DNA of 46,607 bases from a virus: the IMG/VR virus record IMGVR_UViG_3300042987_002731, positions 1-46,607 of that record. One strand, given 5' to 3'. The notes below the pieces were generated by a model that worked only from the letters and a program-made list of their open reading frames with translations, did no database searches and was not told where the DNA came from. Shown here piece after piece: positions 11,482-46,607 of this stretch; position 1 is the stretch's first letter; the number at the start of each line of letters is the position of its first letter. Position numbers and translations under genes: made by a program.

Positions 11482-11984
11482 ACGCTTTTACGCCACCTAC
11501 ATTTACTTTTGCGAACGAGCTAGAAGATAAGCGTAAATTCGCTGAATATCTGCTTTATCACCCAAAAGAAACATGGGCGGCGGCAAGTTCGATTTATCCT
11601 GGCGATGTTGGGAGATGCGCGTACATTTCCCAGCATTGGCCGGGAGACTCGAAAGTCCTTGAGATTCAAAAAGAGCTTGTGGCAGAGCATGGCGAAGATG
11701 CCTTTCTTCCCACAAAGGCCGATGCGGCTCGCTCGATCTGGGACAGGGCTCAGAATTCTCCAGACGATGAAAACTATGGAAAATTGATGCGGCTTTATGC
11801 CGAAGTCCGAGGCTTTATCGAGAAGCCTCAGATCGTCAACAACAATAGTCAGAATAACCTGATTCAACGAGTCATGGTTATTTCAGACAATGGCGATGAC
11901 GATGAATGGAGAAACAGACTCTTAAATCAACAAAAAGCAATCACCTCAATCGAATATGATTCAAAAGAAAAAGATTCCGATTGA
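11478..11984 (+). CDS. Terminase small subunit-like protein
   Basis: This 168-aa protein directly precedes and overlaps the large terminase gene. It starts on an ATGA overlap. The pattern YISQHWPGDSKVLEIQKELVAEHGEDAFLPTKADAARSIWDRA...LMRLYAEVRGFIEKP is typical of small terminase subunits that recognise viral DNA and hand it to the motor. The end is acidic and Asn/Gln-rich (VNNNSQNNL, DNGDDDEW), likely the part contacting the large subunit. Confidence 0.8.
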   Translation: MNAFTPPTFTFANELEDKRKFAEYLLYHPKETWAAASSIYPGDVGRCAYISQHWPGDSKVLEIQKELVAEHGEDAFLPTKADAARSIWDRAQNSPDDENYGKLMRLYAEVRGFIEKPQIVNNNSQNNLIQRVMVISDNGDDDEWRNRLLNQQKAITSIEYDSKEKDSD

Positions 11985-13509
11985 AGTTGTTTGGCAACCA
12001 ATCCCCAACAGTTCTCAGTCTTTCGCGATTGACACAAGAGCCCATCACACTCTGTTTCATGGCGCTCGCGGTCCTGGCAAGACGATCACCCAACTGATGC
12101 GATTCCGCAAGCGTGTGGGCATGGGGTACGGTTCATTCTGGCGCGGGGTTATCTTCGACCGCGAATTCAAAAACCTTTCCGACCTGGTTGCCCAAGGCAA
12201 TCGTTTCTTTCCCCGTTTCGATGATGGCTGCGAGTGGAAGAAGTCAGCAAACGATTACAAATGGGTTTGGCCGACCGGCGAAGAATTGCTACTGCGGCAC
12301 GTTAAAACCATCGACGATTATGACTCATTTCACGGTCACGAATACCCGTTTATTGGCTGGAACGAATTAACCAAGCAACCGACTGCCGATCTCTACGACA
12401 AGTTCATGTCGGTCAATCGTAGCTCATTCATTCCCCAACAACACACTCCCAAAACACTTATTGGGGGTAAGGTTCGCTATTTGACAAGTGACGGCAATCC
12501 TCTCCCTTCAATTCCGCTGGAAGTCTTTAGCACGACCAATCCCAATGGACCTGGACACAACTGGGTCAAGCGACGATTCATTGATCCTGCACCTGCCGGT
12601 CAGATTGTTGAGCGAAAAATCGTGATGCACGATAGCTTGCACAACAAAGACATTGAGGTTATCCGAACTCAAGTTGCCATCTTTGGTAACTTTTTTGAAA
12701 ACCCATATCTTGATTCGGTTTATCGTGCTGGTTTGATGGAATTGTGCGAAAACAACCCAAATCTTTACGCTGCCTGGATTAAAGGCGATTGGGCTGTAAA
12801 TTCCGGTGGAGCAATTGACGATCTTTGGTATAACAACGTGCATGTTGTTGATCGTTTCAAAGTTCCTTCAAACTGGCTAATTGACCGGTCTTTTGACTGG
12901 GGATCAAGCCAGCCTCACGCTTGTATTTGGTGGGCCGAGGCTAATGGCGAAGAAGTAATTTTACCTAACGGTTCCAAGTTCAATCCGGTGCGAGGCAGTT
13001 TGATCGCCATTCAGGAACTTTACGGGACTGAAGCGATTGGAACCAATCGTGGAAATCGAATGTCGGCTAAAGATACTGCTCGGGAAATCCTGCGAATTGA
13101 ATCTGCTTTGAAGTCAGAGCAATGGATCGCTAGAACTCCAATGCCTGGACCAGCCGATAACTCAATTCGCGATGTTCGGGAAAGTGAAGTCGATACGATT
13201 GAGAAGTTGATGGCAGACCAAGGAATTCGCTGGACTGAGTGCGACAAATCGCCAGGTTCGCGGCTCAACGGTTTGCAACTTTTTCGAGATCGCCTACAAG
13301 CCTCAAAGGTAAAAGAAAAGCCGGGTATTTATTTCATGCGAAACTGTAAGGCTTGCATTGAAACTTTACCTGCCTTACCGAGAGATCCAAAAGTTCCTGA
13401 CGATGTTGATACTGACAGCGAAGATCATCTTTACGATGCGGTTCGTTATCGAGTATTGAAGGCAAATAACCGTTTTGCTGAAAAAATCAAAGTGCAATTC
13501 GCAAGGTAG
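11956..13509 (+). CDS. terL: Terminase large subunit
   Basis: The motor that packages DNA into the head. Walker A is GARGPGKT (residues 36-43), with the Walker B-like segment YPFIGWNEL near residue 125. The C-terminal nuclease half has FDWGSSQPHACIWW (catalytic Asp) and a final acidic DTDSEDHLYDAVRY. The length, 517 aa, is normal. It overlaps the small subunit gene by 29 bases, as usual. The module order terminase-portal-scaffold-capsid follows. Confidence 0.95.
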   Translation: MIQKKKIPIEVVWQPIPNSSQSFAIDTRAHHTLFHGARGPGKTITQLMRFRKRVGMGYGSFWRGVIFDREFKNLSDLVAQGNRFFPRFDDGCEWKKSANDYKWVWPTGEELLLRHVKTIDDYDSFHGHEYPFIGWNELTKQPTADLYDKFMSVNRSSFIPQQHTPKTLIGGKVRYLTSDGNPLPSIPLEVFSTTNPNGPGHNWVKRRFIDPAPAGQIVERKIVMHDSLHNKDIEVIRTQVAIFGNFFENPYLDSVYRAGLMELCENNPNLYAAWIKGDWAVNSGGAIDDLWYNNVHVVDRFKVPSNWLIDRSFDWGSSQPHACIWWAEANGEEVILPNGSKFNPVRGSLIAIQELYGTEAIGTNRGNRMSAKDTAREILRIESALKSEQWIARTPMPGPADNSIRDVRESEVDTIEKLMADQGIRWTECDKSPGSRLNGLQLFRDRLQASKVKEKPGIYFMRNCKACIETLPALPRDPKVPDDVDTDSEDHLYDAVRYRVLKANNRFAEKIKVQFAR

Positions 13510-39026: not shown

Positions 39027-39055
39027 AGATTAAGGACTAAATTGTGTATCGTCAA
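39027..39055 (-). promoter_or_regulatory. Leftward sigma70-like promoter for the replication operon
   Basis: On the minus strand TTGACG (39055-39050) is followed after exactly 17 bases by TAATCT (39032-39027). The first gene starts 48 bases further on. It is divergent from the promoter at 39090-39118, so the about 160-base space is a control region between two operons. Confidence 0.72.
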
Positions 39056-39089
39056 GGGGATCTTGGAACTTTACCAAAAAATTTTTGGC

Positions 39090-39118
39090 TTGCAACCTAG
39101 AAGTTTTGGGCTTAAGAT
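39090..39118 (+). promoter_or_regulatory. Rightward promoter for the HTH-primase operon
   Basis: TTGCAA (39090-39095) and TAAGAT (39113-39118) are separated by 17 bases and lie 21 bases before the HTH gene's ATG. The -10 box is the same TAAGAT as at 4080-4085, which suggests a shared sigma factor preference. Confidence 0.65.
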
Positions 39119-39138
39119 TCCCGCGAAAGGAGACTTTT

Positions 39139-39357
39139 ATGGTCAAAAAATTCAATCGAAGGCCGACTTTGGCCGAAAAAACGAGAGAACTGCTGCAAAA
39201 CCGCCGCAGAACTCTCACAATTGCGGAAATTTCTTATCGGCTCGGTGTCAGCGAAAACTGGGTATCGCTTTTTGCGACTGGCAAAATCAGCGATCCTTCA
39301 GTGAACACGATTCAGGATCTTTACGAGCTTTTGACAGGTCAGCATTTGGAATATTGA
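39139..39357 (+). CDS. Small helix-turn-helix regulator (Cro/CI-like), 72 aa
   Basis: The start at 39139 has AAAGGAG six bases upstream. The second half carries a helix-turn-helix of the lambda-repressor type (TIAEISYRLGVSENWVSLFATGK, shown in parts: IAEISYRLGVSENWVSLF). The N terminus is basic. It lies at the divergent control region and probably regulates one or both promoters. Small size points to Cro-like action rather than a full repressor. Confidence 0.8.
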   Translation: MVKKFNRRPTLAEKTRELLQNRRRTLTIAEISYRLGVSENWVSLFATGKISDPSVNTIQDLYELLTGQHLEY

Positions 39358-39364
39358 GACACGG

Positions 39365-41734
39365 ATGGAAATCACAAACAAAATCCCGATGGAAATGCGC
39401 GCCGTGGATCAGTGGGTCTGCTGGAGATTTGAGCAGCGAGGCAACTCGCGACCTACAAAGATTCCGATTGATGCCAAGAGCGGCAGACTGGCAAATGTCA
39501 ATGATCCCGGCACTTGGTCTAGTTATCAGCAAGTCGTGGACACCTTTGGTCACGGGGGTGTCAGCGGAATCGGATTTGTCTTGACGCAAGCAGATCCGTT
39601 TTGCTTTATCGATTTGGATTCAACCGATAATCCAGAAGAAATTGCTGCTCAGGTAGAGATCAGCAATTCGATTCATTCTTACCAAGAGATCAGTCCTGGC
39701 GGTGGTTTGCACATCATTTGCAAAGGGACTGTTCCCTGCGGTCGTCGCAAGGGAAAGATTGAAATTTATTCTTCGCAACGATATCTCACGATGACTGGCA
39801 TCGCGTGGAAGGAATGCGAGATAACTTTTCAGCAGGGTAAGATTTCGCAGATCTGGGAAAGCCTCGGATCAGAAGAAATTCAAAAGGCTCGGTACGATGG
39901 CAATTCCCCACAGATAGCTGACGATCAGCAAGTGATCAACATGGCGAGCGCCGCTCAAAATGCTGAGAAGTTCCTGAATTTGTGGCACGGAAATTTCGGC
40001 AAGTATTACGCGAGTCAATCCGAAGCCGACCTGGCGTTGATCAATATCTTGGCATATTACACTCAAAACCGGGAACAGGTCGCGAGACTGTTTCGGTTTT
40101 CTGCTCTTGGTCAGCGTCAGAAAGCTTCGCGGGATTCTTACGTTAACGTGATGATCGAGAAGGCATTTGATCAGCTTGTTCCACCGATTGATCTGAGCGC
40201 TATTCAAAACCAGATCAGATTGTTTCGGTCTGAAAACAAGCAGAATCCGATTGTGGTCGAGGAGAGGAATTTTCCGAACATGATTGAACGCAGGCCGATA
40301 AAGATTGAGGAAACCCAAAAGAGGGATTCCGACATTTATTCGGTTCCTCCGGGATTGCTCGGTGACATTGCTCAGTGGATTTACCAGTCGGCACCTCGGC
40401 CTGTTCCGCAAATCGCCCTGGCGGGCGCTATTGGCCTTATGGCAGGGATTTGTGGCAGATCCTACAACGTCAGTTCTACCGGACTCAATCAGTATGTCAT
40501 GCTCCTCGGAAATACCGGTGTTGGCAAAGAAGCGATCAGCAGTGGCATCAGCCGGTTGATTGACATCATCCGCTTTCAAATGCCGCAGATTGTGGATTTT
40601 ATTGGACCTTCGGATCTGGCTTCAGGTCAAGGTCTGATCAAATGCCTATCCGATCATCCCACCAAAAGCCTTGTTTCGATTATGGGTGAGTTTGGGATTC
40701 GACTTCAGCAAATCAGTTCGCCAAAAGCAATCGGGGCAGACTCGATGTTGAAAAGAGTTCTCTTGGACCTGTTCAATAAATCAGGTCGAGGGAATGTTGT
40801 TCGGTCAACTGCCTACAGCGACTCGGAGAAAAATACGAAGTCGATTGAATCGCCAGCTTACTCGATCATCGGTGAGAGTGTTCCCGAGAAATTTTACGAG
40901 GCAATCGACGAGGATATGATCAGCAGCGGGTTGCTGCCCAGATTCCTGGTGATTGAATATCTCGGCAATCGCCCGCCTTTGAACGAGAACCATAACGGAG
41001 TCTATCCCTCGCAGCAATTGGTTCAGGGCATCTGCAATCTGGCGACTCAGAGTTTGCAGCTGATCAATACTCGGCAAGTGATCGATATCAAGTTCTCGAA
41101 AGAGGCTTTGGAATTTTTGCGCAAGCTGAATGACGAATGTGACTCGCGGATTAACGGCAGCAAGGCAGACATCATCAGAAACCTTTGGAACAGGTGCCAC
41201 ATCAAGACGATGAAGCTTGCGGCTTTGGTCGCAGTTGGCATCAATCCTTACGATCCGTGCATCGACCTGGATGCAGCGCAGTGGGCAGAAAAGATTGTGC
41301 GAGACGATATCGAAAGGATTTCTGAGCGGTTCCATGCAGGGCGAATTGGCGAGTCTGGCAGCGAAGGTGAGCAGATGCGTGAGGTAATGCGAGTGGTGAT
41401 TGATTACGTCACCCAAGACTTTGAGGAACTTGCTCAGTATGGCAGCAAAATCTCGATGGCAATGCACGACAGCTTCATCGTGCCTTACTTTTATCTCAGC
41501 CGCCGGTTGATCAACACGAAGCTGTTTCGCAAAGATCCAATTGGCAGCACCCGCGCAATAAAAAGGGCAGTTCAAAACCTCGTCGATAATGCCGACTTGG
41601 CTAGACTGCCCGCGCCACAAGTGATGACGAATTTTGGCTTTTCTGGGGAATGCTACATCCTATCGAACATGGAAACTCTCGAAGCAGCGAAACGGACCAG
41701 AATCAATCGGCTCGGTGTCAATAGATTGACTTGA
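39365..41734 (+). CDS. Phage primase-helicase (AEP primase-like plus DUF3987-type ATPase), 789 aa
   Basis: Residues about 1-180: primase-polymerase-like domain with DQWVCWRFEQRG, NDPGTWSSY, catalytic FIDLD (D83, D85) and ISPGGGLHIICKG with His near 116. A helical middle follows. Residues about 340-600 are an ATPase of the DUF3987 sort, with LLGNTGVGKEA as Walker A and IMGEFGIRL and IIGESVPEKF later. It should open and prime the origin and form the core of the replisome with the polymerase of the opposite operon. It starts seven bases after the HTH gene. Confidence 0.86.
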   Translation: MEITNKIPMEMRAVDQWVCWRFEQRGNSRPTKIPIDAKSGRLANVNDPGTWSSYQQVVDTFGHGGVSGIGFVLTQADPFCFIDLDSTDNPEEIAAQVEISNSIHSYQEISPGGGLHIICKGTVPCGRRKGKIEIYSSQRYLTMTGIAWKECEITFQQGKISQIWESLGSEEIQKARYDGNSPQIADDQQVINMASAAQNAEKFLNLWHGNFGKYYASQSEADLALINILAYYTQNREQVARLFRFSALGQRQKASRDSYVNVMIEKAFDQLVPPIDLSAIQNQIRLFRSENKQNPIVVEERNFPNMIERRPIKIEETQKRDSDIYSVPPGLLGDIAQWIYQSAPRPVPQIALAGAIGLMAGICGRSYNVSSTGLNQYVMLLGNTGVGKEAISSGISRLIDIIRFQMPQIVDFIGPSDLASGQGLIKCLSDHPTKSLVSIMGEFGIRLQQISSPKAIGADSMLKRVLLDLFNKSGRGNVVRSTAYSDSEKNTKSIESPAYSIIGESVPEKFYEAIDEDMISSGLLPRFLVIEYLGNRPPLNENHNGVYPSQQLVQGICNLATQSLQLINTRQVIDIKFSKEALEFLRKLNDECDSRINGSKADIIRNLWNRCHIKTMKLAALVAVGINPYDPCIDLDAAQWAEKIVRDDIERISERFHAGRIGESGSEGEQMREVMRVVIDYVTQDFEELAQYGSKISMAMHDSFIVPYFYLSRRLINTKLFRKDPIGSTRAIKRAVQNLVDNADLARLPAPQVMTNFGFSGECYILSNMETLEAAKRTRINRLGVNRLT

Positions 41735-44632: not shown

Positions 44633-44649
44633 CGAAAGATCTCCGTGTT

Positions 44650-44698
44650 CCCGAGCGGGCAAAGATTGTGGTTTTCGTCTGAAAATGTCCCGCTCGGG
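44650..44698. promoter_or_regulatory. Perfect 10-bp inverted repeat in the leader of 44632
   Basis: CCCGAGCGGG (44650-44659) and CCCGCTCGGG (44689-44698) can pair around 29 bases. The transcript made leftward would carry this hairpin just before the ribosome site of the gene at 44632. It lacks a T-tract. A role in translation control or an operator for a dimeric regulator is possible. Confidence 0.5.
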
Positions 44699-44891
44699 CA
44701 TTTCTCGACGTTTTGACAGATTTTGAGATTCTGCCAGATCTCCAGATCTTGGGGTTTCCCGAGGATCTCCGGTTTCCCCACAAGTCTCGGTTTGCCGGTG
44801 TTTTGCCGTCAAATCCTGAGATTCCTGGGTCTTTGCAGATCTCACAAATCGCACGTTTGCAGCGAAATGCGAGAAGTCTCAAAACATTAAA

Positions 44892-44919
44892 AGTCTAATC
44901 GGTAATTTGATCGAGTCAA
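44892..44919 (-). promoter_or_regulatory. Leftward promoter for 44632-41718
   Basis: On the minus strand TTGACT (44919-44914), 16 bases, then TAGACT (44897-44892). It lies about 260 bases before the first gene of the leftward accessory row. The long leader between contains repeated GATCTC-like words and the inverted repeat at 44650-44698. Confidence 0.5.
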
Positions 44920-45192
44920 CTGGAGTTTATCCAAAAATTGTGTTTCAATTTTTGGAAAGTCTTAAATTCAAAAGGGGAATCGTTTGAATCGGCTCCTCGG
45001 AGAGGGTCGATTTTCCCTTGCCGCACGGGAAATGCGGCGGTTTCTCCTGACGGCAGGGGTGATACAAAACATACAAAATATGTTGAGGTCGAAATCGCTC
45101 TTGCCGTCAAAAGGAAATGCGGGGTTTTTTGTGGCAAAACATACGGTTATAAAGAATATGGTGAATTTTTGCCTGTTCTGCTGGCAGGAAAA

Positions 45193-45345
45193 GGGATTTT
45201 GCCCTAGGGGGATTTTGCCCTATTACCGTAGAGCGCTTTTTAAGCGCTTTTTAGCGCTTTTTAAGCGCTTTGAAGCGCTTTTTACTAGTATAGCGCTAGT
45301 AAAATAAGGGGATTTTTATATCTATATATAGGTTATATTTGCCAT
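45193..45345 (+). other. Candidate replication origin: phased AGCGCT array beside A+T-rich DNA
   Basis: AGCGCT palindromes lie at 45232, 45243, 45253, 45264, 45274 and 45292, with steps of 11, 10, 11, 10 and 18 bases. The first five thus sit on one face of the helix. Upstream is a duplicated GGGATTTTGCCCTA (about 45194-45222). Downstream is an A+T-rich stretch with TATATCTATATATAGG (45317-45332). This is the layout of iterons next to a DNA unwinding element. No gene is present. Confidence 0.55.
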
Positions 45346-45498
45346 ATTTTCGTTAAAAACAGGCCATTTTCCCTTGTAGGCATAATCGATACGACCCGTA
45401 TTCGCCCCCTAACCGGCAGATATCCCCCTGACGGCAGGATCTGCCCGTTTGATACGCACGCCCTAACCGTTAAAATCGGCCTTTTATTGGCACGCGAT

Positions 45499-45528
45499 TT
45501 GCATTGTAAAATTTTCGGGAAATATATT
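45499..45528 (+). promoter_or_regulatory. Possible promoter for 45604
   Basis: TTGCAT (45499-45504) and TATATT (45523-45528) are spaced by 18 bases; the spacing is at the upper limit. An inverted ACCGTT/AACGGT pair (about 45541-45561) lies between this and the gene and could bind a regulator. Confidence 0.35.
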
Positions 45529-45603
45529 TAATTTTCCGTTACCGTTTGACGATCTAACGGTTATAGTTGATGCAGTTCGAAACAATTACACGGAGTAAAA
45601 ACG

Positions 45604-45789
45604 ATGAATAGCTTACTTGAATCGATTGATCACGTTCTGATTTCGGTTTACCAGCACAATTCCGAGGCGGATTTGCTGCGATCCTGTTTGCTGCGACTGC
45701 GGGCAAACGTGCAGGGCGACGATCGCGAGTTTGATGATTTGCTTGCCGAATTGCAAGCAAATGCGACCAGAGTAGGAAAGGGCGAATAG
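45604..45789 (+). CDS. Small helical protein, 61 aa
   Basis: CGGAG eight bases upstream supports the ATG. The product is a Leu/Asp/Glu-rich helix (LLRSCLLRLRANVQGDDREF, DDLLAELQANATR). It ends one base before the GP88-like gene, so the two are cotranscribed. Unknown function. Confidence 0.68.
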   Translation: MNSLLESIDHVLISVYQHNSEADLLRSCLLRLRANVQGDDREFDDLLAELQANATRVGKGE

Positions 45790-45790
45790 C

Positions 45791-46607
45791 ATGAAATACA
45801 CCCCAAAGTTTACCAAAGCGCAGGCGCTTGAATTTGCTCGATTGTGTGGCTCTGCTGATTTGCCTACTATCATCGCCCGGGCGCGGGCAATTGCCGCCAA
45901 ACTGCCCAAGGGCCGGGGCAAACGCGCCGCTAATAACTGGCGCGGTTATTTCCTGCGGTTCGCGGATGCCCTATCGGTTGGCGCGATTCCGTTTGCTATT
46001 TTTGCGCTCGACGGGAATAGCAAATTGCCATTTGCTGCATTTTCGACCCTGCCGATTGTGACCTGCCCCGGCGCGGGTGAATGCGCGGGAATCGGGGCGG
46101 ACGGTTTGCCCGATTTGGCGCGGGCGTGGTGCTATTCGCTCCGGGCGTGGCGATATCCTGCCGCATTCCTGCGGCAGTGCCAAAATACGATTTTAATCCG
46201 GTTTCGCCCCGATGCAGTCGCGGGCGCATTTGCTGCCCTGCCCCGCTCGATTGTCCTGCGGCTGTACGTCGACGGCGATATCGACTCGGCAGCGACTGCT
46301 CGATTTTGGTTCGCCCTACTCAAATCGCGCCCGGACGTTTGCGCCTATGGCTATTCCAAGTCGCTCGACATACTCGACGCGCTCGCGGGCGATATCCCGC
46401 CCAACTATACGCTCAACCTATCATCGGGCGGGCGGTTCGACGGGGCGGAAGATCTGCGGCAGCGACTGCGGGCGCAGCAATTCACCCGGGGCGACTTTGT
46501 AGCGGTTAGAATCGAGGGCGACTTCGCGCGAGGTTTCGCCCGCTATTCCGATCCCGCCTATCATCGGGCAGTGAGGGCGGCAGCGGAGCGCGACGGCCTC
46601 GGGCGCG
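45791..46607 (+). CDS. GP88-like phage protein, N-terminal part (runs off the window end)
   Basis: The frame starts MKYTPKFTKAQALEFARL. Residues about 70-115 hold the family core FAIFALDGNSKLPFAAFSTLP, then TCPGAGECAG and the CYSLRAWRYP segment, matching the GP88 family of mycobacteriophage and other phages. The frame stays open to the last base and joins 3-503, for about 310 residues in all. The gene is much richer in G+C than most of the genome, which suggests it came from elsewhere or is under different codon pressure. Confidence 0.8.
   Translation, partial: MKYTPKFTKAQALEFARLCGSADLPTIIARARAIAAKLPKGRGKRAANNWRGYFLRFADALSVGAIPFAIFALDGNSKLPFAAFSTLPIVTCPGAGECAGIGADGLPDLARAWCYSLRAWRYPAAFLRQCQNTILIRFRPDAVAGAFAALPRSIVLRLYVDGDIDSAATARFWFALLKSRPDVCAYGYSKSLDILDALAGDIPPNYTLNLSSGGRFDGAEDLRQRLRAQQFTRGDFVAVRIEGDFARGFARYSDPAYHRAVRAAAERDGLGR
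46221..46607. repeat. Right copy of imperfect 387-base terminal repeat
   Basis: This copy matches bases 1-387, with 16 mismatches in the first 260 bases and none in the last 127. The changes are synonymous in the GP88-like frame except one Asp-to-Gln codon. See the left copy. The genome length without the repeat is about 46,220 bases. Confidence 0.93.

Follow-up and report, generated by a model that had tools for sequence, protein, structure and literature searches.

The window analysed here, 46,607 bp of viral DNA (IMG/VR record IMGVR_UViG_3300042987_002731), is a siphophage genome. Its two ends share 387 bp of sequence (95.9% identity), and the seam is spanned by a second contig; hence the genome, ~46.2 kb long, is either circular or terminally redundant. 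The overlap (1-387 against 46221-46607) contains 16 mismatches, as if two slightly different variants had been joined at the seam. The structural genes, including those for large terminase, portal, scaffold, major head protein, tape measure, and tail proteins, run rightward, with the large terminase at 11956-13509 and a probable small terminase just before it. Leftward genes at 30-38 kb encode a DNA polymerase, a helicase, a Cas4-type exonuclease, a single-strand binding protein, and Sak4. Small leftward genes separate the primase/helicase gene from the non-coding region examined in this study, and GP88 lies on the rightward side of that region (Table 1). Just past GP88, a GC-rich low-complexity block at 500-900 contains short tandem repeats (GGCAGCGACTGCGGGCG x3 and others), and in the sister contig this block differs by small indels.

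The sequence-only reading had placed a set of phased repeats in a gene-free region, and ORF and gap analysis bears this out: positions 44633-45603 carry no family-supported ORF and form the biggest gap in the genome. An upstream GTG could lengthen the leftward 183-aa ORF to 44854; a single-sequence AlphaFold model of this neighbour has a mean pLDDT of 46, too poor to interpret. No initiator of a known family was recognised next to the array, the region of the array contains no strict DnaA box and no IHF-type site, and an Rfam search returned nothing above a gathering score. An intrinsic terminator on the + strand was rejected: despite the good folding of the array (z -3), there is no rightward gene that ends at this place. 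GGTTATA was also considered as a primase start motif and set aside: three of its four copies in the window lie in the gap, but the gaps of most relatives lack it.

Other repeats occur in the same region. The GGGATTTTGCCCTA pair and GGGATTTTGCCC are both absent from the rest of the window. The pair loosely resembles GGTCTTGACCCC dyads in a gap of IMGVR_UViG_3300012005_000015 (G011), which is the best full-length environmental relative and has a comparable divergent gap. The G011 gap also holds, at L103:5123-5401, a 99-nt imperfect inverted repeat, 76% complementary, with arms 81 nt apart. The non-coding region of the window contains four of the genome's eight TGCCGTCA boxes, which alternate in orientation; two of them lie at 44804 (+) and 45048 (-) and the inner two (45102, 45429) are placed nearly symmetrically about the array, an enrichment that is suggestive only.

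Table 1. Features of the non-coding region and genes referred to in the text, by position in the window
Feature	Positions	Strand	Remarks
Small HTH protein gene	39085..39357	+	directly upstream of primase; weak candidate array binder
Primase/helicase gene	39365..41734	+	NrS-1-type helix bundle domain; synteny anchor
Leftward neighbour gene, 183 aa	44081..44632	-	without known family
Largest non-coding region, 971 bp	44633..45603		between leftward 183-aa ORF and rightward 61-aa ORF
TGCCGTCA box	45102..45109	+	pairs with inverted copy at 45429
Two direct GGGATTTTGCCCTA copies	45193..45222		spacing 16 bp; putative operator or second iteron
Five in-phase AGCGCT palindromes	45232..45279		21-bp unit x2.5; steps 11, 10, 11, 10
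Phased T-tracts (T5, T5, T5, T3, T5)	45237..45283	+	at 10-11 bp; predicted intrinsically curved
18-bp dyad AAGCGCT-TTTT-AGCGCTT	45242..45259		iteron-like; perfect 7-bp arms, T4 core
Second 18-bp dyad AAGCGCTTTGAAGCGCTT	45263..45280		21 bp (two turns) from first dyad
Perfect 9-bp inverted repeat TTTTACTAG-N7-CTAGTAAAA	45280..45304		holds out-of-phase sixth AGCGCT
Candidate DNA unwinding element	45297..45360		least stable 30-mer and 60-mer of genome
Inverted TGCCGTCA box	45429..45436	-	
Sigma-70-like promoter match, rightward operon	45449..45476	+	matches about as many as chance expects
61-aa ORF, first rightward gene	45604..45789	+	without known family
GP88 (PF17338) gene	45791..46606	+	crosses circular seam into window start

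The array consists of six AGCGCT palindromes, which a recount in the window found starting where they had been reported (45232, 45243, 45253, 45264, 45274, and 45292); only four further copies occur elsewhere in the window. Successive steps are 11, 10, 11, 10, and 18 bp. At 10.5 bp per turn, the first five copies lie at 0, 17, 0, 17, and 0 degrees, in agreement with the claim that they share one face of the helix, and the sixth lies out of phase at 257 degrees, so we leave it outside the phased set. The array exceeds chance: no complex 6-mer reached six copies in a 60-bp stretch in any of 60 whole-window or 2000 intergenic shuffles, where the maximum was 4. In the best fit by Tandem Repeats Finder (TRF), a 21-bp unit occurs 2.5 times with 93% matching, so the 10/11 alternation may stem from few duplication events. 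The same sequence can also be parsed as two 18-bp dyads, 21 bp or two turns apart. An identical array is present in IMGVR_UViG_3300047550_004999 and thus is not a single-contig error; since this contig matches the window at 100% over 10.8 kb, it is evolutionarily uninformative.

T-tracts sit between the palindromes, and under a dinucleotide wedge model the array is the strongest predicted bend of the window (83 degrees over 42 bp and 111 over 63 bp). Under an AA-only model, its curvature ranks second in the window over 42 bp and third over 63 bp. The A4T4/T4A4 controls behaved correctly, the wedge model passing. A further strong predicted bend, at the start of HTH/primase (39162-39188), lies near the GC-skew minimum of the window and is an alternative origin candidate. 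The A+T-rich flank claimed for the array is present, with 78% A+T at 45298-45360, and the least stable duplexes of the window lie directly right of the array (30-mer at 45311, 60-mer at 45297). Two features of iteron origins are therefore found here, namely, clustered repeats beyond chance (TRF and shuffles) and neighbouring low duplex stability. A strand-composition switch, which is a supporting rather than a strictly defining feature, is located elsewhere: the GC-skew minimum, which the sequence-only reading had proposed as a check on the site, instead lies next to HTH/primase, at 39027, and around 43750 there is only a lesser local minimum.

Comparison with other phages was anchored on the primase, which has matches in 438 records of the phage collection, the top match having 47% identity. 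The metagenome of sample 3300034061 contains relatives with protein-level identity of up to 91-97%. The window, KL1, Septimatrevirus, Halfdan, XAJ2, FtMidnight, PaMx42, and UF_RH5 have a common gene order with a non-coding gap downstream of the primase, and XAJ2, like the window, has small leftward genes before the gap. In each of the nine relatives, this gap contains the 60-mer with the highest AT content in the genome. The GC-skew minimum lies at most 1.1 kb from the gap centre in seven of the nine. With gap DNA excluded, the minimum still falls within about 400 bp in six of the nine, a coincidence whose binomial figure assumes independence and is overstated, since several relatives are mutually close; the UF_RH5 coincidence is then gone, and in PaMx42 and shaaii the minimum lies elsewhere. 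Genes on either side of the gap are co-directional in KL1, FtMidnight, Halfdan, UF_RH5, and LPPA15, so a switch in gene direction does not explain the skew minimum. Unlike most of its syntenic relatives, the window has its minimum off the gap. In a genome of this small size, gene direction and recent rearrangement can shape the skew, which is a possible reason and not evidence.

The repeats show a different pattern from that of gap position. The expectation that relatives would carry a conserved phased array failed, since among the viral contigs and 20 related records searched the AGCGCT array was found only in the near-identical contig, along with two unrelated simple repeats; XAJ2, Halfdan, and shaaii carry different repeats in the gap. 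In 4 of the 12 phages compared (window, XAJ2, Halfdan, and shaaii), repeats to the left of the AT tract, on its primase side, exceed all 500 shuffles; these repeats are mutually unrelated, and no common sequence was seen among them. By the same 500 shuffles, the repeats left of the AT tract are borderline in Guyu and LPPA15, and the remaining phages, among them FtMidnight, PaMx42, UF_RH5, and G011, have no significant repeats there. The gaps of KL1, Septimatrevirus, Halfdan, XAJ2, and FtMidnight are thus like that of the window in gene order, large size, extreme AT tract, and, in some, primase-side repeats, whereas the repeat sequences are unrelated to those of the window. The AGCGCTTT arrays turned up by a genome-wide scan were 32 scattered tandem repeats, for the most part of uniform period, and no context common to them was seen. 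Alternating 11/10 steps occur in none of the 34 other AGCGCT arrays inspected in genomes and viruses, nearly all of which have one uniform period of 9-12.

An explanation by arrays linked to GP88 was also considered, and primase synteny was preferred given the absences of GP88. A tblastn search with GP88 against the phage collection gave no match, and GP88 was not found in 13 structural-gene or polymerase relatives, a weak result since the control matched nowhere. Some GP88-bearing contigs have short-repeat arrays of their own, unrelated in sequence (L016:4129-4310, L019:4495-4600, L023:2519-2670, and L014:6084-6220), with the units TTACAT/ATGTAA, GTATAA every 11-12 bp, GTTAAC, and GCTCTACCTG among them. 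In the GP88 relatives L016 and L019, the array lies upstream of GP88, and no other repeat block of the locus is as dense.

An arrangement of phased repeats next to an unwinding element is of an already known kind. In lambda-type origins, the iterons show intrinsic bending and have an AT-rich tract as their neighbour (PMC7466680). The array shares with ori-lambda the A/T-tract repeats, intrinsic curvature across the repeats, and an adjoining AT-rich unwinding tract (PMC7466680), but a lambda-type origin lies within an O-type initiator gene, whereas the array is non-coding and outside any initiator gene, with a core that is a 6-bp palindrome at one-turn pitch. RepA_N iterons, as in the Vibrio PLE satellite, pSK41, and pTZ2162, are non-coding inverted repeats converging on a poly-A tract (PMC7145576), a form matched by AAGCGCT-TTTT-AGCGCTT, which is also non-coding (PMC7145576). 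Because no O or P homologue was found among the window proteins scanned, and no RepA_N protein among the subset of window ORFs scanned, we assign the array to neither type. In phi29, the p4 sites lie in curved DNA, with phased A-tracts between early and late promoters. The array resembles p4-type operators in having phased A-tracts between divergent promoters but differs in repeat form, and no p4 homologue was found.

The combination of bent repeats with an adjoining unwinding tract, the same polarity in several lineages, and the strand composition of the group leads us to conclude that the array is, on balance, probably the iteron block of a phage replication origin, with iterons beside an unwinding element, in a region shared with divergent promoters. 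The origin suggested by the sequence-only reading is therefore upheld in part. The adjoining stability minimum, predicted curvature, and syntenic position speak for it; the skew minimum at 39027, the lack of the array in relatives, and the several relatives without significant repeats count against it, and AT-rich, curved DNA is typical of promoters too.

From these computed features we infer how protein binding, unwinding, loading, and origin activity at the array might proceed. A dimeric phage-encoded DNA-binding protein would bind the close-packed palindromes or, in the alternative parse, the 18-bp dyads with T4 core, and the small HTH protein upstream of the primase is a candidate for this binder. 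Binding would be cooperative, on one face of pre-bent DNA, and the wrapped complex would strain the low-stability A+T-rich tract at 45297-45360 until it opened. The phage primase/helicase would then load onto the opened tract. Divergent promoters would be housed in the same non-coding region. An HTH gene upstream of the primase is found in all relatives aligned, with 13-61% identity to that of the window and no invariant column, and such strong divergence, judged from sequence, would fit a protein that reads fast-changing repeats.

The main rival is that the array is a cooperative operator or a curved upstream-activating element for divergent promoters and has no part in replication initiation. 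The region parts a leftward from a rightward operon, activation from phased A/T-tracts placed upstream of a promoter is a known design, other operator-like repeats are present (GGGATTTTGCCCTA x2, TGCCGTCA x4), and in G011 an HTH repressor-like gene flanks the counterpart, which contains GGTCTTGACCCC dyads. However, promoter matches occur only at chance level, and promoter control alone leaves unexplained both the stability minimum beside the repeats and the coincidence of gap and GC-skew minimum in relatives, co-directional contexts included. We regard promoter control as unlikely to be the whole function of the array, and it may coexist with origin function.

Alternatively, the array could be a tandem duplication of a 21-bp unit without selected function, its phasing a mere by-product, as the TRF fit of 2.5 copies and the absence of the array from every relative examined would allow. 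Yet the 11/10 alternation is seen in none of the 34 other AGCGCT arrays, and a neutral array would be unexpected beside a stability minimum, in a conserved gap that holds other repeats in some relatives, so we find this history improbable. The array might also be of partition type (centromere-like), with ribbon-helix-helix dimers binding at one-turn pitch. It would then recall the short repeats at that pitch in ParR/parC and Omega sites, but the genes scanned yielded neither a ParA/ParM-type partition NTPase nor a ribbon-helix-helix protein, and gene content is mainly virion, terminase, and phage replication, making this reading very unlikely. That the small terminase binds the array as a pac-type packaging site is hardly credible: the record ends are redundant and TerS proteins in some phages bind short phased repeats, but the terminase genes are about 13 kb off on the circle and pac sites usually lie in or near terS.

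Extending the origin reading to the whole group is speculative and, in our view, doubtful at present. The primase-downstream gap could be the common origin of siphophages with this primase type (KL1, Septimatrevirus, Lokivirus, XAJ2, and the lineage of the window), in which position and unwinding tract would be kept while the iterons turn over completely between lineages, read by the small fast-diverging HTH protein just upstream of the primase. The version in the window would then be a minimal one-turn-pitch palindrome array on bent DNA. The passages found in the KL1 paper name no origin (PMC3483164), and no mapped origin for this phage group was found in the literature searched. What is new here is a candidate origin position for the group, together with unusually short palindromes at one-turn pitch. 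Several of the phages can be grown on laboratory hosts (Halfdan and FtMidnight on E. coli), and in these the gap provides a specific, testable origin candidate. If it is the origin throughout the group, the joint change of origin repeats and the protein that reads them would become open to study.
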